A stretch of DNA of 64,000 nt from an uncultured Cytophagales bacterium (GTDB taxonomy: Bacteria; Bacteroidota; Bacteroidia; Cytophagales; UBA9547): contig CAMFLX010000002.1 in assembly GCA_945957555.1 (NCBI GenBank), positions 62,001 to 126,000 of the forward strand. The letters are read 5' to 3'. The translations under genes and the position numbers were made by a program. Below are positions 39,445-60,368 of this stretch, one piece after another (position 1 is the first letter of the stretch; each line of letters begins with the position of its first letter). The notes under the pieces were generated by a model. It did no database searches, was not told where the DNA came from, and worked only from the letters and a program-made list of their open reading frames with translations.

Positions 39445-40440
39445 TTAAATTAGGTGCAATCCTTTAGCAATGTCTTGTATGAATTTTGACATAGGTCTTT
39501 TGTGGATATCTTCTGGAGTGTCATAGTTACCAATTAATATTCTATTGAATTGTTTTGGGTGTGGAACCACTGAGCTAAAACTTTCAAATAAAGAATTTTT
39601 ATATACGTCATTGTATATTAATGACTTATTTATGAGTTCTGCTGCAATATCTTTCTGAGTGTTGTATATTTCTTGTATATGAAACAAATCTTGCAAACAA
39701 CCTTCAGAGAAAGATTCTTCTGATATCTTGTCAGGATCATGAAAAGTTATAGCTAGTTTTTCATGATTAAAGTCTATCAAATATTCTGCTTTGCTTGTCT
39801 CTGTAATTGAAAAAGCATAATTATTTGGATTTGGTGTATTAGAGTCGGAGTATAGTTTGAAGTTTACAGGCTTTTTTTGCTTTATGTTATTACAAGTTGC
39901 ACATGTAGGATATAAGTTTAATAAACTTATTGACAGGTATGGATAATCAATTTGAGAATAAAAATGATCGACTTGGAATTTGGCAACCCAGTGTAAGGTG
40001 TCTTGCTTTTTCCCACTTTCATTGAAAGTGCTTTTCTCCAAGCTTAAAGTATATTGGCTGTTACAGTAAACACAAGCTTTAATACCAATTTTGCCAAAAT
40101 ATTTAGGATAAAAACTACCCCTCTTGGAGTGATATCCAAGAGCATTTATTATTTTAGACTGTAAGGTGTCATCCTTTTTTTTAGAAAAAGTAATTGTTGG
40201 TACTTTTTTTACCATGGTTTTTAATGTTTCCATCTCATCCAAACCTAACGTGAGAATATTTTTATTCTCTAACTCTTTTACTAGCATTTTGATGAACTTC
40301 AATGCTTTTGCATTATTTTTTATTTTTTTATCATCCGCTAATAGTTTTAGTTTATTGAATGCATCATTTGAATATTTTTCTATTTCCTTTTCAAAGTACT
40401 TTATACATTCATTGATTGTTAAAATGGAAATCGCAATCAT
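39445..40440 (-). CDS. HNH endonuclease, PtuB-like partner of the ATPase
   Basis: A 331-residue protein with a zinc-supported HNH site: ACVYCNSQYTLSLEKS, then KFQVDHFYSQIDYPYLSISL and NLYPTCATCNNIKQKKPVNF. The order CxxC–DH–N–CxxC–N fits the HNH fold of Septu PtuB and similar defence nucleases. The N-terminal ~100 residues are helical. Its start overlaps the ATPase stop by four bases, so the two proteins are made together. Septu joins an SMC-like ATPase (PtuA) with PtuB; the ATPase here is longer than usual, so this may be a Septu relative rather than a standard one. Confidence 0.82.
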   Translation of the reverse strand: MIAISILTINECIKYFEKEIEKYSNDAFNKLKLLADDKKIKNNAKALKFIKMLVKELENKNILTLGLDEMETLKTMVKKVPTITFSKKKDDTLQSKIINALGYHSKRGSFYPKYFGKIGIKACVYCNSQYTLSLEKSTFNESGKKQDTLHWVAKFQVDHFYSQIDYPYLSISLLNLYPTCATCNNIKQKKPVNFKLYSDSNTPNPNNYAFSITETSKAEYLIDFNHEKLAITFHDPDKISEESFSEGCLQDLFHIQEIYNTQKDIAAELINKSLIYNDVYKNSLFESFSSVVPHPKQFNRILIGNYDTPEDIHKRPMSKFIQDIAKGLHLI

Positions 40441-42509
40441 TTGTTTAATTCTTTAGTAAGCCTGTCTATTTCCCTTTTTATAGTTTCCTTAGTATTGAAT
40501 TTGTTTAAGTACAGACGTCTTATCCCCTCCTTCAACATTGGCTCCCCAATTATTTGAATGAATTTGTCAGCTTTTTCTTGATTCCATAGTTCCTCATTCG
40601 TGTCTCTGTTTTCTAAGTATGTAATCAGTGACTGTATTTTGTTTTTTGCAAATTCACCCATGAAACCTTTATTGAGGAAAAATTCATATTTGAGAAGATC
40701 ATGAATGTTTGCTCCAAAAGTTTGATTAATTCCCTTTTCTGTATGCGGAACGTAAGTGTTGTTTTCGCTTTTTAGCATCAAGATGTTTGAATCTGGTATA
40801 TCTGAAAGTATAAATGGAGAGTGAGTTGAAAATATAATATTAATGCCCTGTATGTTGTTTAGATTGGCATTCTTTAAATTATGCAATAACCGCCATATAA
40901 ACGTTCTTTGATATTCGGGATGAAAATGAAGTTCAATCTCATCCATCATAATATTCAGGTATTTATATCTTATCCTTTTTTTAGATATTTTATTATCAGA
41001 TTTATCATCAAAGACTGAGTCTATATTATTAATCTGATAGATTATGCCTTGGATAGAATGAATTAGCTGTTGCTCTCCTGAGCTAAGCTTGCTAAAGTAA
41101 TTTGAAGACGATGGGTTGTTTAAGCCTATATTTTTTGGGAGATCATATAGAACCAATTCTATATCAAATAATGAAGGAGGGATTACTTCAATAATCTTGT
41201 TAACAGAAGTTCTTGTTTCTATAATTCTATTGGACAATGTTTCTACTGAAATTTCAAATTGCTTTTTTAGAACTCCATTCGAATCTATTTTATCAGTCCA
41301 TATAGTTTTTTCGGCAATATCGTTCCTTAAAATGTCCCCTTTCAGATAATTAATTGCTTGAAAAAGCTTGAAAGTTATATGACTTTTATCTTGAGTTAGT
41401 TTTTTAAGAAAACCATCAAAATCCCTAAACCGTGATCTTTGCTGAATAATTTTCTTTCCATTAATAGGAAGAATCTTGTTTGGGAACTCGGAAAAATGTT
41501 CTTTGTATTTAGGATATGTTTGAGCAATTTTGATTAGCTTTTTAATAATATACAATTCTATTTCAGTCTTGTAAATAATATCATCAGAAGGCTCGGATCC
41601 AAAAAATACCCCATATATGGATTTTAGGAGCAATTCTTTTTTATCCTTTTTAAAAAACACTTCAAAACTTATTTCTTTGTCTTTTGGATTGGTGCTTTTA
41701 TATGCATATTCGATCTTACTATTATTTAATTCGAACAAAAAACCTTTTACTTTATGTTTTTCTGTTATATATCTGAAGTCGTCGCTTTCACCTTTAATCG
41801 GCCTTAAAATATTACTGAGTAATCTTTGTTTAGCTAAATATATTTCATGGTTTATATCTATTATTCCATCTTCTCTAAAGGGATTAATAACGATGGGTGT
41901 TTGATAACCATCATTTTTAAAGTAAATCGCTTTTATCCAATTTCCAAGATTCAAAGAATTTAGTCCAAATAGTGAATAATTGGTAACTATTGTATAAAAA
42001 AAATCATGCAAGTTGAAATTTACAATATCATCTTTTGTTTTATTAGTAAAGTTGGTTAAGGTAATATCGTCATTTAAAAACCGAATCTGTTTTATTTTAT
42101 CGTTTGTCAAATAGTAAAGTTCACAGTTAAAACCTCGATGTAATTCTTCGATTATTTTGTTTGTTAATGGGTCGATTATTATTTTTCTTTTGACAGCTAT
42201 ATTATACACTGCAATAAAAATAAGTTCAAATAATGAACTTTTGCCTGAACCATTCTCTCCAACTATGGCTGAAATATTTACCGATACATTGGTTTTATTC
42301 TTTAAGTTTTTAATATTATACAGATCATTAATCTTAGCTCCTTCAGAATCATATTCTACGTTAATTACCTCTAATTCAATATTGTTGTCTTGGTAAATAA
42401 ACTTGTAATCATTAAAAAACTTATATGTTTGATTTGGTTTTAACACTTTCAATAACGCTGGGGAGCAACCAATTAAAGGTCTGATTGCTATCAATTTAAA
42501 ATCATTCAT
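40437..42509 (-). CDS. SMC-like AAA ATPase, PtuA-like
   Basis: A 690-residue P-loop ATPase. Walker A is AIVGENGSGKSSLFEL near residues 82–97. The ABC-type signature region is YFSKLSSGEQQLIHSIQGII near 500. Walker B is LNIMMDEIELHFHPEYQRTF near 545, and the H-loop INIIFSTHSPFILSDIPDSN follows. A long middle region (~150–480) separates the halves, as in SMC/Rad50-like defence ATPases. It is the first gene of a two-gene operon with the HNH nuclease. By analogy with Septu, ATP binding would control the nuclease during phage attack. It is AT-rich like the HNH gene and unlike the GC-richer integrase module on its right. Confidence 0.82.
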   Translation of the reverse strand: MNDFKLIAIRPLIGCSPALLKVLKPNQTYKFFNDYKFIYQDNNIELEVINVEYDSEGAKINDLYNIKNLKNKTNVSVNISAIVGENGSGKSSLFELIFIAVYNIAVKRKIIIDPLTNKIIEELHRGFNCELYYLTNDKIKQIRFLNDDITLTNFTNKTKDDIVNFNLHDFFYTIVTNYSLFGLNSLNLGNWIKAIYFKNDGYQTPIVINPFREDGIIDINHEIYLAKQRLLSNILRPIKGESDDFRYITEKHKVKGFLFELNNSKIEYAYKSTNPKDKEISFEVFFKKDKKELLLKSIYGVFFGSEPSDDIIYKTEIELYIIKKLIKIAQTYPKYKEHFSEFPNKILPINGKKIIQQRSRFRDFDGFLKKLTQDKSHITFKLFQAINYLKGDILRNDIAEKTIWTDKIDSNGVLKKQFEISVETLSNRIIETRTSVNKIIEVIPPSLFDIELVLYDLPKNIGLNNPSSSNYFSKLSSGEQQLIHSIQGIIYQINNIDSVFDDKSDNKISKKRIRYKYLNIMMDEIELHFHPEYQRTFIWRLLHNLKNANLNNIQGINIIFSTHSPFILSDIPDSNILMLKSENNTYVPHTEKGINQTFGANIHDLLKYEFFLNKGFMGEFAKNKIQSLITYLENRDTNEELWNQEKADKFIQIIGEPMLKEGIRRLYLNKFNTKETIKREIDRLTKELNK

Positions 42510-42854
42510 GTTCTTTTAATAAAGTCTGTCGTTTATATAAGGCCATTTATCGTTGGTAATTTTTATAGACAGGATATTAAGTTGAATTTTATCCATTCCA
42601 TTTTCTAATGTAGTAAATCATTGCGTCTAATAAAAGTAACTTTGACAATACATCGCTATTGTTTGTAATCTGCATCATCTTTCTTAAAAACAGTAAGATT
42701 CGACTTTTGATACCATAATATTAAATAGCAGTTGGAAGATTCTATACTTCAGCAAGGAAAACTCGATTCTTGCTGTCTTTAAGAGACCAAACAGCAAAGC
42801 CGACCTTTTGGGTCGGCTTTGCCGTTATTGATTGGTTTACACACAACGGGAAAA
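42510..42854. other. Intergenic region with a perfect hairpin
   Basis: About 345 bases with no gene. The only strong structure is GCAAAGCCGACC–TTTTG–GGTCGGCTTTGC (42794–42822), a 12-bp stem that lies 33 bases after the stop of the next minus-strand gene and probably ends it. Confidence 0.6.
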
Positions 42855-43577
42855 TCAATCCCCGTACTCCTCGTCACTGTCGTCATCATCTTCCACGTTC
42901 GTCTCGAAGAAGTCGTCCTGATCAAGACACTCGTCTAGGTGTTCCAACTCGTCACTGTCATAGTCGATGGTATAGGAGTCGTCAACCTCCTCCCAGTACC
43001 CCTCAAACTCCTTTACAAAGTCGTTGAGCCTCTCCCAGATGGTGAACACCTCGGGACTGTGGTCGGTGTTCATGGCAATGAAGTCCTCAATCTCGTCCCT
43101 GAGCTCAGAAAGCCTGTCCTTGAAGTCCTCCAAGTCCTCCTCATCCCACTCTATTTCCTCGCAGTCCTTGCGGAGCTCTTTCAACAGCCTCAGATACCTG
43201 TTGAGGTACACCTTGCCCTGTCTGGTGATCTCCTTGCGCTTTTTGTCCTCCTTGCTTGCAGACTCGCCCTTTTTGATCTCCAGTTCCAGCGTCCTGTTGC
43301 GCAGTTCGTACATCTTGCGCTCGTGATCCAGTTCCAACTGGCGGAACCTGAACTCAAGGTCACCATCCATTCCCTGAACGGGATTTTCGATCTTGTGGTA
43401 GGCAAGGTTCCCCTTGGTGTCCATCGTTCCGTAATGGTTCGTTGAAGCTCCCAATGTCATGTGCAACATCCTGTGCACAGTGGTCTTGCTGACGTTCAGC
43501 TCATTTGCTATCTCCGACATGGACATGCCACTCTCGTACATTTCCTTGGCCTTTTCTGCCGTTTCCTCGTTTGCCAT
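42855..43577 (-). CDS. HTH protein with acidic coiled-coil body, element-associated
   Basis: A 240-residue protein. Residues 1–35 form a resolvase/Hin-like HTH: ETAEKAKEMYESGMSMSEIA, then NELNVSKTTVHRMLH. A long charged helical region follows (FRFRQLELDHERKMYELRNR, LNRYLRLLKELRKDCEEIEW) with a very acidic tail (ETNVEDDDDSDEEYGD). I recognise no named family; proteins of this form occur next to excisionase and integrase genes in Bacteroidota elements. It may be a DNA-bending or transfer-related accessory factor. Same strand as the excisionase-like gene and integrase. Confidence 0.65.
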   Translation of the reverse strand: MANEETAEKAKEMYESGMSMSEIANELNVSKTTVHRMLHMTLGASTNHYGTMDTKGNLAYHKIENPVQGMDGDLEFRFRQLELDHERKMYELRNRTLELEIKKGESASKEDKKRKEITRQGKVYLNRYLRLLKELRKDCEEIEWDEEDLEDFKDRLSELRDEIEDFIAMNTDHSPEVFTIWERLNDFVKEFEGYWEEVDDSYTIDYDSDELEHLDECLDQDDFFETNVEDDDDSDEEYGD

Positions 43578-43665
43578 CTTTGTTGTGTTTAAAGGATTGT
43601 GTGAAATCTAAAAGTTGGGAACGGTCGGGCTGTATTCGTGGCCGTTCCCGATATGGACAAGGGGC

Positions 43666-43959
43666 TTACCCCTTGTATCCTTTTTTGAAGGCTGGGTTCT
43701 TGTGCGCTTTGAGGAAGGCCTCAATGTCCTCCATCCTGTAGTAGATCTTGTGGCCTACCTGTGAGAAGGCGATCAGCCCCTCGTCACGCCAAGCCTGTGC
43801 GGTGGGCTTTGATACGCCCATGAGCTTCTCGAACGATGCACTGTCCAGAAGCCTTTCTGCATCCCTTTTAAGGTCTGCGGTTGCCATTGCCCTTGCGAGG
43901 CTGTCGATCTTGGAGACCAGTACCTTGTAATGGTCTTCCGTCATTAGTTCCACGTTCAT
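43666..43959 (-). CDS. Excisionase-like helix-turn-helix protein
   Basis: A 97-residue protein. The second half is an HTH_17/MerR-like DNA-binding domain of the excisionase class: LMGVSKPTAQAWRDEGLIAF, then QVGHKIYYRMEDIEAFLKAH. The first half is a short helix region. Such proteins direct integrase toward excision or regulate element genes. A TTTGAAC–TTG–GTTCAAA palindrome at 43981–43997, just upstream of its start, could be its operator. The integrase is 450 bases further on the same strand. Confidence 0.82.
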   Translation of the reverse strand: MNVELMTEDHYKVLVSKIDSLARAMATADLKRDAERLLDSASFEKLMGVSKPTAQAWRDEGLIAFSQVGHKIYYRMEDIEAFLKAHKNPAFKKGYKG

Positions 43960-43980
43960 AAGATTATGGTCTGTGCTTGA

Positions 43981-43997
43981 TTTGAACTTGGTTCAAA
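43981..43997. promoter_or_regulatory. Palindrome upstream of the excisionase-like gene
   Basis: TTTGAAC–TTG–GTTCAAA, a perfect seven-base inverted repeat 22 bases upstream of the start at 43959. Position and symmetry suit an operator for an HTH dimer. Confidence 0.5.
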
Positions 43998-44317
43998 TGA
44001 ACAAAAAGCGTCCGACATGCTTTCCCCTTTCGGTCACAAACGGTAGGGATCGGTCACAACTTTGCCCGAATCTGCCCGTTTTCATCGCATTGAAAGCATC
44101 TTGATCCCATTTGTGGGCGGGACACCATCGCTGATCCCAACCAGTTTCAAACATGGCTCAAATCAAAGGAAAATATCTGGGACACTGTACCTGTTTTGCG
44201 GTCTTGTGCGGGGTTTTGTGCAAATATGCCGAACTATGGTGGATTTTGCGTGATTTTGCAGGGCATACGCAAGGATAGTCACACCCTATCGAAAAAACGT
44301 TTGGAACGGCATGGAAT

Positions 44318-44337
44318 GTTCCATATCGATATGGAAC
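44318..44337. repeat. Perfect 20-bp palindrome
   Basis: The half-site GTTCCATATC is followed directly by its complement, giving a 20-base perfect palindrome 75 bases after the integrase stop. Candidate protein-binding or recombination site. Confidence 0.6.
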
Positions 44338-44412
44338 GCTGGGGAACTGGCTGTATAGGGTTGGTGGAACGGAGGAAAAGTGATACTTCCCCTCCGTTTG
44401 ATCTATTTATTG

Positions 44413-45609
44413 TCAGGAGTTGAACACGTCCATAGCCCTGTCGAGATCCTCGTTCACGATCTTGGCATAGTCCAAGGTCATCAGGATGGTGGAGTGACCC
44501 ATGAGCTTTGAAACTTTCTCCACGGGTATACCTTTGCGCAACGCCCTTGTTGCCCATGTGTGCCTACCTATGTGGGTGGTCACCTTTTTGTCGATCCCCG
44601 CAAGCTTGGCGATTTCTTTCAGCCCCTTGTTGACTTTCGATGTTGCCTCCTGTATGGAATCGTGCAACAGTTCCGCATCATCCGTGTCAAGATCGTCATC
44701 CAGTACGGGGAACAGGTAGCCCGTCTTGCGCCTGTATTTCTCAATGATCACCAGTGACCTGTTGGGTAGTTTTAATGACATTTGCCCCTTGGTCTTGCGT
44801 GTGGTGAAGTGAACGTGTGAACCGTCCATCTTCTCCCACCTAAGCTGTAGGAGGTCTGAAATCCTTACCCCACCCGTCTCTGAGGCAAAAAGGAACATGT
44901 CCCTGTACATTTCAAGATCGGGATTGCCAGTAAGTTCCAGTTTCACCAGAGATTCCAGTTCGGTTTCGGTAAGGAAGCCCTTCTGGGTCTTTTCCGTCTG
45001 GAACTTAACCTGCCTAAAAGGGTTCTGGTGGTATTCTATTACCTCCTTGCGCAGTGCCTCGTTATAAACCGCCTTGAGGAACTTGAGGTTGTGGGTGATG
45101 GTATTGGTCTTGTTCTCCAGTTCGGTACGCATGTATTCGGTGAAACGTTCCAGAACGGGGTGTGTGATATCGGAGAACGATGCGTTCCTGTTCCCTAGAA
45201 AACGTTCCAGCTTGTTGAGGATGCCCATCCTGTCCCTGTACGTACCAATCTTCTTCTGTTCCTTGAAACGGTTCACCATCTTGTCGGCAAATGGAAAGAA
45301 CCCGATGCTGACTTTACCGTTCACCTTGTCCCTGATCTGGGTGGAAGACAGCGACCTGTCCACAGTCTGCGATTCGAGGAACATCGCCTGTACCTCGGCA
45401 AACTTTGCCTGTAGCAGGGCGTTGAGCCTTGCGCTGTTCTGTACGCTCGGGCGAACCCTTGTGTTTTTTTCGTCCCATGCCTGTTCTGGAACCATGATGC
45501 CAGAAGCAATGTACCTAGGTTTCCTGTCCTTGGTGATGCGGAAGTGGATAGGGCATTCGCCCCTCTTGTTAATCTTGTCCTTCCTGAATACGATCTTTAG
45601 TGTTGCCAT
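44413..45609 (-). CDS. Tyrosine recombinase / integrase of the accessory element
   Basis: A 398-residue integrase of the Bacteroidota mobile-element type. The N-terminal arm-binding domain (TLKIVFRKDKINKRGECPIH, PRYIASGIMVPEQAWDEK) is followed by a SAM-like core-binding domain (RFKEQKKIGTYRDRMGILNK). The catalytic domain has Arg in ETGGVRISDLLQLRWEKM, the HxxR motif THIGRHTWATRALRKG, His in LMGHSTILMTLDYAKI, and Tyr in the same segment. It is intact in length and active-site residues. It lies at the right edge of the accessory block, reading inward, which is typical of an integrated element whose attachment site is just to the right. Confidence 0.93.
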   Translation of the reverse strand: MATLKIVFRKDKINKRGECPIHFRITKDRKPRYIASGIMVPEQAWDEKNTRVRPSVQNSARLNALLQAKFAEVQAMFLESQTVDRSLSSTQIRDKVNGKVSIGFFPFADKMVNRFKEQKKIGTYRDRMGILNKLERFLGNRNASFSDITHPVLERFTEYMRTELENKTNTITHNLKFLKAVYNEALRKEVIEYHQNPFRQVKFQTEKTQKGFLTETELESLVKLELTGNPDLEMYRDMFLFASETGGVRISDLLQLRWEKMDGSHVHFTTRKTKGQMSLKLPNRSLVIIEKYRRKTGYLFPVLDDDLDTDDAELLHDSIQEATSKVNKGLKEIAKLAGIDKKVTTHIGRHTWATRALRKGIPVEKVSKLMGHSTILMTLDYAKIVNEDLDRAMDVFNS

Positions 45610-57834: not shown

Positions 57835-57863
57835 CAAAATCCCCAAACAGGTTTGGGATTTTG
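57835..57863 (-). terminator. Hairpin after the tRNA-Arg remnant
   Basis: CAAAATCCCCAAAC–AG–GTTTGGGATTTTG (one bulged C). It stands in the same place relative to the tRNA 3' end as the terminator at 59255–59290 does for the intact gene. It is probably the original chromosomal tRNA-Arg terminator. Confidence 0.7.
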
Positions 57864-57907
57864 TGGTCTCACCAAGAATCGAACTTGGATCTAAAGTTTA
57901 GGAAACT
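57863..57907 (-). repeat. attachment-site-like copy of the tRNA-Arg 3' end (45 bp)
   Basis: Identical over 45 bases to 59293–59337: it covers the anticodon 3' side, variable loop, T arm and acceptor 3' strand of tRNA-Arg. The flanking bases differ at both ends (57862 versus 59292; 57908 versus 59338). The 5' half of the tRNA is missing. This is the usual remnant left when an element integrates at a tRNA 3' end. Confidence 0.88.
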
Positions 57908-57983
57908 CATAATAAAAAAATTAATTCGCAGAAAACTATCAGTTTTTAAAGATTTTTAGAAATAAGAATATATTTGTAAATCT

Positions 57984-58847
57984 ATGACAGAGATTTTAAA
58001 ATCCATAAATGATTATTTCAAATTATATTCAATAATGAGAAAAGAGCTTTCTAATATTAATATTGAGTTAATAATAGAAAAAAGCTTCTTAGAACCAACG
58101 GATATTTTGATATTAACACAGTTTATTATAAAACAAAACCAAAGAAACTGTGAAATTACCGTTAGTGCTTCAGATAGTAATGTTTTAGATTATTTAAAAG
58201 CTATAAAAATTGTAGATTTTTGTAGCAAAAATATTGATATGGCAACAACTCTTGATGCTATTGAAAATTATACTGCTATGCCAATTAGGAGAGTTGAAGA
58301 AGAAAGCATGTTTTCTTATATTGACAGTACACAAAAATATTTTAGATCGTTTTGTGATGGGAAAGATTTAAGCATGTTAGACCTTTGTTTATCTGAACTA
58401 ATAAATAATGTACATAATCATTCCCACTCTAGTATTGGGGCCTATGTTTTCTGCCAATATTATTCTTCCCAAAATGAAATCAAATTAGCAGTTTCTGATT
58501 TAGGAATTGGTATACCAATGTCTGTAAACTCATTTAATAAATCGAAAAATCAAAAGGAATTATCATCACGCGAATGTGTAATTTGGGCACTAAAAGAAAA
58601 CATGACAACAAAATCAATTCCTCAAAATATGGGTAAAGGCTTAGACATTATTAAATCTTTTATGGGAAAAACCAATTTAACTTGGAAGCTTTATACAAAT
58701 GATGTATTAATGAATGGTTACCCTTCAGGAATTAAGTATGAAGAAAACCCCATTTCTTTTTTTAATGGAACTTTGGTTCAACTAAATATCAAAATTGACA
58801 ATTTACCAGATTTAGAAATAATAGAATCTGTTGAATGGAGTTTTTAA
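57984..58847 (+). CDS. GHKL (histidine-kinase-like) ATPase of the tRNA-Arg mini-island
   Basis: A 287-residue protein. The second half is a HATPase_c domain: the N-box is LCLSELINNVHNHSHSSIGA, G1 is AVSDLGIGIPMSVNSF, and G2 is NMGKGLDIIKSFM. No phospho-acceptor dimerisation domain, receiver or membrane segment is present. The N-terminal ~110 residues (ELIIEKSFLEPTDILILTQF) look like a small STAS- or helical-type domain. It is encoded head-to-head in end position with a STAS-like gene (stop codons adjacent). The combination recalls anti-sigma kinase/antagonist pairs and predicted two-protein modules of unknown role. AT-rich, unlike the flanking genes. Confidence 0.78.
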   Translation: MTEILKSINDYFKLYSIMRKELSNINIELIIEKSFLEPTDILILTQFIIKQNQRNCEITVSASDSNVLDYLKAIKIVDFCSKNIDMATTLDAIENYTAMPIRRVEEESMFSYIDSTQKYFRSFCDGKDLSMLDLCLSELINNVHNHSHSSIGAYVFCQYYSSQNEIKLAVSDLGIGIPMSVNSFNKSKNQKELSSRECVIWALKENMTTKSIPQNMGKGLDIIKSFMGKTNLTWKLYTNDVLMNGYPSGIKYEENPISFFNGTLVQLNIKIDNLPDLEIIESVEWSF

Positions 58848-59138
58848 TTACTGACTGATTGGTTTTTGAAATGAAGATACGTATTTTTTCAAAACATCAG
58901 ATTGTGTCGGCGTTAATTTTACTGCTTTAACTCTATTAAAAACCTTTATTCCATATTTATCAATAAGAGCGCCTATTGAAGAATTAAGAAATGAAGAAGA
59001 TGTTATTGAAACACCTTCAAATGATAAAATTAGCATTTCTTCATTTGCATCCAAAGCATTTTCCATAACAACAAATAATGAATAACCTGAGGCATTTGTA
59101 TATGTTTCTGGAACTATGTCTTTAATTGTAATGATCAT
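58848..59138 (-). CDS. STAS-like DUF4325 protein of the mini-island
   Basis: A 96-residue protein matching the STAS-like DUF4325 pattern: MIITIKDIVPETYTNASGYS, LILSFEGVSITSSSFLNSSI, GALIDKYG. The central 'L.f.gv..i.ssFl…lig.l' is the antagonist-type strand–loop–helix where partner proteins are phosphorylated. DUF4325 genes often pair with GHKL ATPases, as here. Its stop abuts the stop of the ATPase gene (58847/58848), so the two are convergent with no spacer, unusual for partners. Confidence 0.75.
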   Translation of the reverse strand: MIITIKDIVPETYTNASGYSLFVVMENALDANEEMLILSFEGVSITSSSFLNSSIGALIDKYGIKVFNRVKAVKLTPTQSDVLKKYVSSFQKPISQ

Positions 59139-59254
59139 ATTATTATTGATCTAATTTAGAATATGAATGAAATGAACTTAAGAAATTATAATAGTTGACT
59201 TTTTATTAAATATACTAAAAAATCCAAATGATTGTTTCATTTAACCCAAACTAT

Positions 59255-59290
59255 TAAAAAAAGATCCCTTATTTAGATGAGGGATCTTTT
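59255..59290 (-). terminator. Terminator after tRNA-Arg (right-hand copy)
   Basis: AAAAGATCCCT (59259–59269) pairs with AGGGATCTTTT (59280–59290). On the minus strand it is followed by a T-run (plus A-run 59255–59262). It starts three bases after the tRNA 3' end and can also serve the divergent STAS-like gene region. Confidence 0.8.
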
Positions 59291-59292
59291 AA

Positions 59293-59337
59293 GTGGTCTC
59301 ACCAAGAATCGAACTTGGATCTAAAGTTTAGGAAACT
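59293..59337 (-). repeat. attachment-site-like 45-bp repeat within intact tRNA-Arg
   Basis: Second copy of the repeat at 57863–57907, here joined to the tRNA 5' half. The two copies enclose a 1430-base unit. Confidence 0.88.
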
Positions 59338-59365
59338 TCTATTCTATCCGTTGAACTATGAGACC
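59294..59365 (-). tRNA. tRNA-Arg(CCT)
   Basis: Acceptor GGTCTCA/TGAGACC, discriminator A; D stem GTTC/GAAT; anticodon stem GAAGT/ACTTT with loop TTCCTAA, anticodon CCT (decodes AGG); T arm CCAAG–TTCGATT–CTTGG. It lies 25 bases after the stop of the ABC ATPase gene on the same strand. Its 3' 45 bases are duplicated at 57863. Confidence 0.93.
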
Positions 59366-59390: not shown

Positions 59391-60368
59391 TCAATTGAAT
59401 TGTATCAACCCTTCTGGATTTAATTTCACATAAATTTTATTTTTCAAATCTAAAACCTCCTTGGCATAGAAAAAGAAGGGTTTTTCGTTTAAATTAAAGT
59501 AGTATTTATAATTATCTCCATAAAAGAAGCGCTTTTCCAATACTACTTCTCTCCCATTTCTCGCATCAGAGATTGAAAATACTGAAGGTCTGGCATACGC
59601 AGTCTCCGCCCTTTCAACTCCAAAATACAATAAAGTTTCTGCACTCAACTCTACTAGTTCCCCAGAAATCTCGGCAACAGCCTTATTTTTAGGTCTGTGG
59701 TAAATTTGCTCTGGACTGTCAGACTGGGCTACCCTGTTACCATCTAATACAATAACTCTTGTGGCAACCGAAAGTGCATCGGTAGCGGTATGGGTCACAA
59801 ATACCAAGGTAGTACCTAGAGCATCAGCGATGTCCAGTATGTCATTCTTTAACAAAGCCGTATTACTGATATCTTGGTTGCTAAAGGGTTCATCTAACAA
59901 CAAAAATGAAGGCTTGGAAATCAAGGCTTTTGCAATGCCTGCACGTTGCAGTTGCCCTCCTGATACTTGCGTGGGATACTGATTGATATAGTCTTTCATC
60001 CTGAATACTTCCGCAAGTTCATCTGTTATGTTTTTAAGGTAGGTTTTGCTTTCGAACTTTATAGGTAATACTATATTTTCCAAGATCGTGAGGTTCCTGT
60101 CAAATTTAGTATGCTGTGTAACTAATGAGATCTCAGGATGCCCAGGAACTAATTTAGTACCTGGTCCATCGATTTTCTCATTATCCAAAAACAGACCTCC
60201 AGCATCTGTCTCTTCAAGCCCTGCAAGAATTCTCAACAAGGTGCTTTTGCCAGTACCGTTTGCACCCAATAAAGCTACGCGCTCTCCTTGTTGAATTTTA
60301 AGAGAGATGTTATGAAGAACTTTGTGGTTCTCATAAGACTTGTAAGCGTTTCTAAGTTGTAATACCAT
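59391..60368 (-). CDS. ABC transporter ATP-binding protein (CysA/PotA class)
   Basis: A 325-residue ABC ATPase. Walker A GANGTGKST is near residues 34–42, the Q-loop SLVTQHTKF near 85, the signature QVSGGQLQRAGIAKAL near 135, Walker B SFLLLDEPFSNQD near 155, and the H-loop VFVTHTATDALS near 190. The C-terminal ~85 residues form a TOBE-like domain (VFSISDARNGREVVLEKRFF). No permease or binding-protein gene is adjacent, so the substrate cannot be inferred. It is between nrdA and tRNA-Arg on the same strand, separated from nrdA by a terminator. Confidence 0.9.
   Translation of the reverse strand: MVLQLRNAYKSYENHKVLHNISLKIQQGERVALLGANGTGKSTLLRILAGLEETDAGGLFLDNEKIDGPGTKLVPGHPEISLVTQHTKFDRNLTILENIVLPIKFESKTYLKNITDELAEVFRMKDYINQYPTQVSGGQLQRAGIAKALISKPSFLLLDEPFSNQDISNTALLKNDILDIADALGTTLVFVTHTATDALSVATRVIVLDGNRVAQSDSPEQIYHRPKNKAVAEISGELVELSAETLLYFGVERAETAYARPSVFSISDARNGREVVLEKRFFYGDNYKYYFNLNEKPFFFYAKEVLDLKNKIYVKLNPEGLIQFN

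Follow-up and report, generated by a model that had tools for sequence, protein, structure and literature searches.

A two-gene, 1.4-kb island between copies of the tRNA-Arg(CCT) 3' part in an uncultured Cytophagales bacterium

The duplicated tRNA part and the DNA it encloses

The stretch of DNA that we analysed, called the window below, comprises 64,000 nucleotides of a draft genome (6.25 Mb in 413 contigs) of an uncultured Cytophagales bacterium. It contains two convergent genes with abutting stop codons, enclosed by a 45-bp direct repeat whose copies agree in 45 of 45 bases and lie 1,430 bases apart (Table 1). The right copy forms the 3' portion of the one tRNA-Arg(CCT) that ARAGORN detected, which is intact, and the left copy consists of positions 29–73 of that tRNA alone. 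As read from the sequence, position 29 belongs to the 5' side of the anticodon stem. Exact identity over 45 bp exceeds chance by far, and a search of the whole genome with the tRNA returned only these two copies of the block, which rules out a dispersed repeat.

Immediately past the displaced copy is a terminator-like hairpin. On the island side of the intact tRNA a second one, GATCCCTCATCTAAATAAGGGATC followed by T7, was read directly in the sequence; the hairpin scan did not return it because it allows only shorter loops. The island interior (57908–59292; 1,385 bases) has a GC content of 26.3%, which is exceeded by all segments of this length in the 64-kb stretch (mean 39.6%, sd 5.4%). It holds two genuine ORFs, and 76 bp separate the 45-bp core from the vapK-like gene. 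The ORF list and Pfam reveal no recombinase in the 1.4-kb island, nor does any ORF in the 1.38 kb correspond to a fragment of an integrase. An exact repeat bounded by the tRNA, with one copy inside the intact gene and the other lacking the 5' half, a terminator past each copy, AT-rich DNA in between and only two genes without an integrase are what a first-pass annotation, made from the sequence alone, had described, and in all these respects it was accurate. A genome of the same family (G004) has a single copy of the tRNA with the same ABC ATPase gene adjoining; this is the nearest thing to an empty site, and serves as a proxy only.

Table 1. Features of the tRNA-Arg(CCT) locus in the window.
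Position	Strand	Feature	Basis
57841..57858	-	terminator hairpin past the displaced copy; probably the original tRNA terminator	hairpin scan
57863..57907	-	displaced copy of tRNA-Arg(CCT) positions 29–73, distal att, 45 bp	exact repeat
57984..58847	+	vapK-like gene, 287 aa	Pfam, AF2 model, alignments
58848..59138	-	vapS-like gene, 96 aa, STAS-like DUF4325	Pfam, family profile
59260..59292	-	terminator-like hairpin, island side of the reconstituted tRNA	read in sequence
59293..59365	-	intact tRNA-Arg(CCT), whose 3' part (59293..59337) forms the att-block copy on the element side	ARAGORN, repeat comparison
59391..60368	-	ABC ATPase, flanking host gene	same neighbour at the tRNA in G004

A VapK/VapS-like pair of a toxin-less class

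The protein encoded by the vapK-like gene has an N-terminal alpha/beta domain followed by a GHKL ATPase/kinase domain with the N-box ELINNVHNHS and the G1 box DLGIGIP. Its Pfam match to HATPase_c_2 (E 2.9e-5) lies below the gathering cut-off of the family, and the best PDB match of the AF2 model (pLDDT 82) is the GyrB ATPase domain. The gene has the STAS–GHKL kinase layout of vapKSC, with the N-terminal domain as a presumed STAS domain by analogy with the architecture of VapK. The vapS-like protein matches DUF4325 (PF14213, E 2.4e-9), and a profile built from it and its relatives matched one solved protein, Escherichia VapS (PDB 9z7o, E 1.9e-15). Ser48 of VapS, which by our count is residue 66 of the tagged 9z7o chain, aligns with Ser48 of the window protein; in the column alignment this position is Ser or Thr across the relatives, and Ser48 is a candidate phospho-acceptor. 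Foldseek searches with the VapS model gave weak STAS matches only, for example to RsbS. An assignment to DISARM was discarded, as the PADLOC matches to DrmA were weak and did not extend beyond the ATPase and STAS regions. The profile match to 9z7o together with the match to published vapKSC identifies the pair as VapK/VapS-like.

The vapKSC system, described in 2026, protects against a phage: VapS uses its C-terminal region (94–116) to block the PIN toxin VapC, a phosphomimic at Ser48 abolishes this inhibition, and ssDNA is the probable activator of the VapK kinase (PMC13373217). The window pair shares with vapKSC the GHKL kinase with a STAS partner, the profile match and the conserved serine of the phospho-site; it differs in that no VapC is encoded by the two ORFs of the island, the C-terminal tail of VapS that blocks VapC is missing, and the genes are convergent, whereas in every other pair that we found vapS is downstream of vapK in the same direction. 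One explanation for these differences is that the pair is an inert remnant of a vapKSC operon that lost its toxin. The inverted vapS would fit such a history, as would the complete vapK-vapS-vapC with a PIN toxin on contig C40 of the source genome (L071 15665–19180), which lies between direct repeats of 50–104 bp that are absent elsewhere in the genome. A second two-gene unit stands in tandem with this C40 system.

However, the comparison of 84 kinase loci across Bacteroidota (a few of them, present in both of two overlapping collections, enter twice) argues for a different reading. We defined a close class by a kinase profile E-value below 1e-38 relative to the window kinase (n = 26) and looked for VapC within 1.5 kb. 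VapC accompanies none of these 26 loci but 27 of the 58 more distant ones (Fisher p 6e-6). Likewise, past profile position 90 the VapS of the close class has only 4–9 more residues (measured in 25), and that of all 27 VapC-linked loci has 17–25. The absence of the toxin is thus a property of a widespread and intact two-gene class, of which the window VapS, with its short tail and no VapC, is a normal member and not part of a broken vapKSC. An inert remnant is therefore improbable.

Two other kinase–STAS systems resemble the pair. In CapK/CapS, regulators of immune operons, an anti-sigma-type kinase also acts with a STAS substrate (PMC13373217); however, the window kinase begins with the alpha/beta domain and has no HTH, its partner consists of 96 aa of STAS only without a wHTH, and no immune operon follows downstream. 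SpoIIAB/SpoIIAA (RsbW/RsbV) share the presumed mechanism, a GHKL kinase acting on a serine of a STAS protein, but the window kinase carries a separate, fused domain that is presumably STAS and has no known sigma factor partner, and the similarity is weak (TIGR01925, E 0.005). By homology, VapK would sense ssDNA arising from DNA damage or phage attack and would phosphorylate VapS on Ser48, releasing a target other than VapC. The kinase reaction and the defensive role that we assign to the window pair are thus predictions from sequence.

Islands at the same tRNA in relatives, and other locations of the pair

When 380 genomes of the order were searched with the tRNA, about forty contained additional partial copies, and 32 of these were examined. 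The first-pass annotation had proposed comparing related tRNA-Arg(CCT) loci for other cargo between the repeats, and such cargo is indeed present, including ParDE and secreted or unknown proteins. In the family with Algoriphagus and Aquiflexum the tRNA adjoins rpsP-, rimM- and trmD-like genes, and the sequence 3' of it varies between genomes. Genome G350 has an island of about 3.0 kb with an exact displaced copy of 51 bp (positions 23–73) at 2.9 kb, G095 has tandem islands of 1.8 and 4.4 kb with exact 51-bp copies at 1.8 and 6.2 kb, and G237 has two copies of the block 2.5 kb apart on a contig; the cargo in these three encodes secreted or unknown proteins. The island of Aquiflexum lacus (G374) measures about 1.25 kb, has an exact copy of 33 bp at 1.2 kb and contains only a ParE/ParD toxin-antitoxin pair. 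None of the islands in these four genomes contains an integrase ORF. A 31-kb island beside the tRNA in G333 does encode a 498-aa tyrosine integrase (Phage_integrase and Arm-DNA-bind_5), of which a 6.8-kb island in G288 retains a C-terminal remnant (80% identity over 64 aa); the island in G327 contains another integrase fragment. In G324 a gene family found about 30 bp from the tRNA in G294 and G377 is located at +2.6 kb, following an insertion of 2.5 kb at which no displaced tRNA copy is recognisable.

The window block (45 bp, positions 29–73) is comparable with the 51-bp block of the relatives (positions 23–73), and like the Cyclobacteriaceae tRNA-Arg(CCT) island family the window island has a block that runs from the anticodon stem to the 3' end. 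A different tyrosine integrase at tRNA-Arg(CCT) in G062 goes with a block of only 15 bp and a 5.6-kb island, so that the window block resembles the anticodon type. A large serine integrase at this tRNA in G028 was rejected as a parallel, since the second tRNA copy there contains a palindromic insert and adjoins a GIY-YIG gene. In two different genera (L073 10560–10983 and L076 19084–19420) there are also additional copies of tRNA-Arg(CCT) whose D-arm region has a GC-rich palindrome inserted, each next to a small GIY-YIG nuclease gene; they look like a separate small mobile unit. The tRNA-Arg(CCT) of L003 (G015), a genome of another family, is identical to that of the window in 73 of 73 bases.

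The inner ends of the relatives' islands are alike with or without an integrase. The distal array, which precedes the distal copy, consists of two TTGCAGT repeats, ACTGCAA and finally, some 25 bp from the core, TTGATTTTCA or a sequence close to it; on the tRNA side a TTGATTTTCA-like sequence 4 bp past the tRNA is followed by the terminator and then by TTGCAGT repeats. Most of the integrase-less islands keep both arrays of the 31-kb island, with G374 having one at the distal end only. Across 118 genomes of the family, a strict pattern of the distal array matched three times (twice in G095, once in G350), always at an island end, and a reversed control pattern not at all. The TTGCAGT and TTGATTTTCA repeats are probably arm-type, attP-like integrase sites.

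Neither kind of arm is present at either end of the window island. The longest words shared between its ends are no longer than in shuffles, and comparison of the ends with all fetched loci gave no meaningful match. The source genome contains no close homologue of the G333 integrase, its integrases being similar to that enzyme only over 65–95 residues (about 31%). With neither arms nor an integrase of the matching type, the reaction at the window locus cannot be tied to a known enzyme. The earlier suggestion of a recombinase supplied in trans has support in the relatives' integrase-less islands, most of which keep both arrays, but none in the window island. The window itself encodes a tyrosine integrase (44413–45609); nothing links it to the 1.4-kb unit, and we rejected it as the responsible enzyme, its own island not being at a tRNA. 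This second small island (39445–45609) also has an HTH_17 excisionase-like gene (43666–43959) and a candidate defence pair, PDC-M62A/B, that is, an AAA ATPase with a PtuB-like partner (Septu-like). Its integrase part has a GC content of about 50%, its cargo one of 29%, and contig C16 encodes an enzyme 94% identical to its integrase.

The VapK/VapS pair itself occurs at several other genes. Islands of 13.7 kb (G272) and 26 kb (G248) carry it as first cargo behind a tRNA-Phe; they are bounded by 17- and 24-bp copies of the tRNA 3' end, respectively, and each has a tyrosine integrase at the far end. In three other genomes the pair is the sole cargo between direct repeats: 64-bp repeats covering the 3' end of tRNA-Arg(ACG) and its terminator in G038; copies of the 5' end of a greB-like gene in the Sporocytophaga MAG G191 (L062 7434–10966), where one of two tandem units contains only the pair; and copies of a gene 3' end with terminator in G364 (L069 6527–14120), where the 1.5-kb pair unit adjoins a second unit of 0.9 kb with a PIN gene. 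Eight vapK loci, the window included, lie less than 700 bp from a tRNA and all on its 3' side, a pattern noticed post hoc. Direct repeats accompany 8 of 34 pairs compared to 15 of 269 random spans from the same loci (7 of 33 without the window, Fisher p about 0.005), the control hits coming from four loci and being non-independent. We did not accept as insertion footprints a strong direct repeat at L039, where the pair itself was probably copied in tandem, and the long repeats at L042 and L145 (669 and 936 bp); around the pairs near tRNA-Met in G374 and L064 there is no convincing att pair. A profile search of viral contigs with the kinase found no relative, and phage and plasmid records gave distant partial matches only, mainly in streptococcal phages and Hymenobacter plasmids. 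In G395 (L144 4503–9645) two tyrosine recombinase genes lie directly upstream of a VapK/VapS pair, the 3' end of the second is duplicated beyond the pair, and RHS-core genes are nearby.

Many further copies of the pair have no repeats and lie in part beside restriction genes. The first-pass annotation had taken relatives with the same genes but no tRNA duplication, or the duplication as a general repeat elsewhere, to speak against integration. The former is literally the case in many relatives, but it only shows that the pair travels by several routes; the latter was not found in the source genome.

Origin and meaning of the island

A tyrosine integrase that crosses over in the anticodon loop of a tRNA gene leaves a block of identity from there to the 3' end of the tRNA, a mode that Williams reportedly described in 2002. 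As a rule, such integration leaves an intact tRNA at one end and, at the other, the displaced 3' part followed by its own terminator. We infer that the 45-bp duplication is the footprint of site-specific integration at tRNA-Arg(CCT) by an integrase of the tyrosine type, with a probability of roughly 0.85. The first-pass annotation had also read the repeat as an integration footprint, and the tRNA-bounded block starting at the anticodon stem, the foreign composition of the enclosed DNA and the islands with unrelated cargo at the same tRNA in other Cytophagales all point in this direction. In the proposed reaction at the anticodon stem-loop, the incoming DNA would have brought its own copy of tRNA positions 29–73 and rebuilt the tRNA, displacing the resident 3' part with its terminator by 1.43 kb; between the att copies would lie cargo only, the vapK/vapS pair of the toxin-less class. 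The unit may have originated as a deletion derivative of a larger island or as a mini-element that an integrase from elsewhere inserted on a single occasion.

An origin without integration, in which illegitimate or homologous recombination imported a fragment with a partial tRNA and the two genes, could draw on the many sites where the pair has no repeats and on the draft state of the genome. However, the block ends at the anticodon stem and at the tRNA 3' end, as in islands of other genera, and each copy is followed by a terminator; we consider this origin very unlikely. Given integration, internal deletion may have stripped a larger element of its integrase and most of its cargo, leaving vapK/vapS and both att copies. 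Complete integrase-bearing islands that carry the pair at their tRNA-proximal end, the integrase remnants in G288 and G327, the inverted vapS as a sign of rearrangement and the lack of arms and of a matching integrase in the source genome are all consistent with such decay, to which we give nearly even odds. Against it, the 1.38 kb contains no integrase fragment among its ORFs, both 45-bp copies are still identical, and the same outcome would have to have arisen by independent deletion in each of four comparable units that hold only the pair at different target genes.

Alternatively, the 1.43-kb unit may have moved as such, MITE-like, with an integrase acting in trans. The islands of 1.25–4.4 kb at the same tRNA in relatives make this plausible: they lack an integrase, have unrelated cargo and mostly keep the arm arrays of the G333 island, the strict arm pattern appears three times in 118 genomes and each time at the end of such an island, and G095 has a tandem array of them. 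However, the window island has no arms, its ends share no words longer than in shuffles, only 76 bp separate the core from vapK, and no helper integrase is present in the source genome, and movement in trans is a possibility that we would rate short of even. The missing arms and the missing helper favour a sedentary remnant at the window locus. Whichever way it arrived, the island is most likely sedentary today, and its present mobility is not supported.

Among known elements, CIMEs and the integrase-less ssrA islands of Dehalococcoides also have cargo flanked by attL and attR at an RNA gene without an integration module (PMC3146451). The window island has attL/attR flanks and no integrase or transfer genes of its own, but it is much smaller (1.43 kb, two genes) and no integrase-bearing element adjoins it at the same site, as the block does not occur a third time in the genome; the nearest integrase, 12 kb away, is not at a tRNA. 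CALINs and MITEs are likewise units without an integrase or transposase that are moved in trans. The repeats of the window island, however, are tRNA 3' parts and neither attC sites, as in integron cassettes and CALINs, nor terminal inverted repeats, as in MITEs and IS elements, and the inverted similarity of its ends is no better than in shuffles. Its two genes include none for phage-satellite packaging or interference with a helper phage.

Taken together with the relatives' islands, these observations lead us to propose, tentatively and with the odds against it, that tRNA-targeting elements of Bacteroidota have MITE-like derivatives of 1–4 kb, composed of arms and cargo without an integrase, which integrases of larger islands move in trans, and that the toxin-less VapK-VapS pair is a self-contained cargo repeatedly carried in this way and acting through another target. 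The recurrence of the pair as sole cargo suggests that a kinase and its STAS partner are enough for a selectable function; the cargo in the window represents a toxin-less branch of the newly described ssDNA-triggered kinase switch. Because island finders seek an integrase, integrase-less units of 1–4 kb are largely invisible to them. If such units do move in trans, defence and toxin-antitoxin genes can spread pair by pair.
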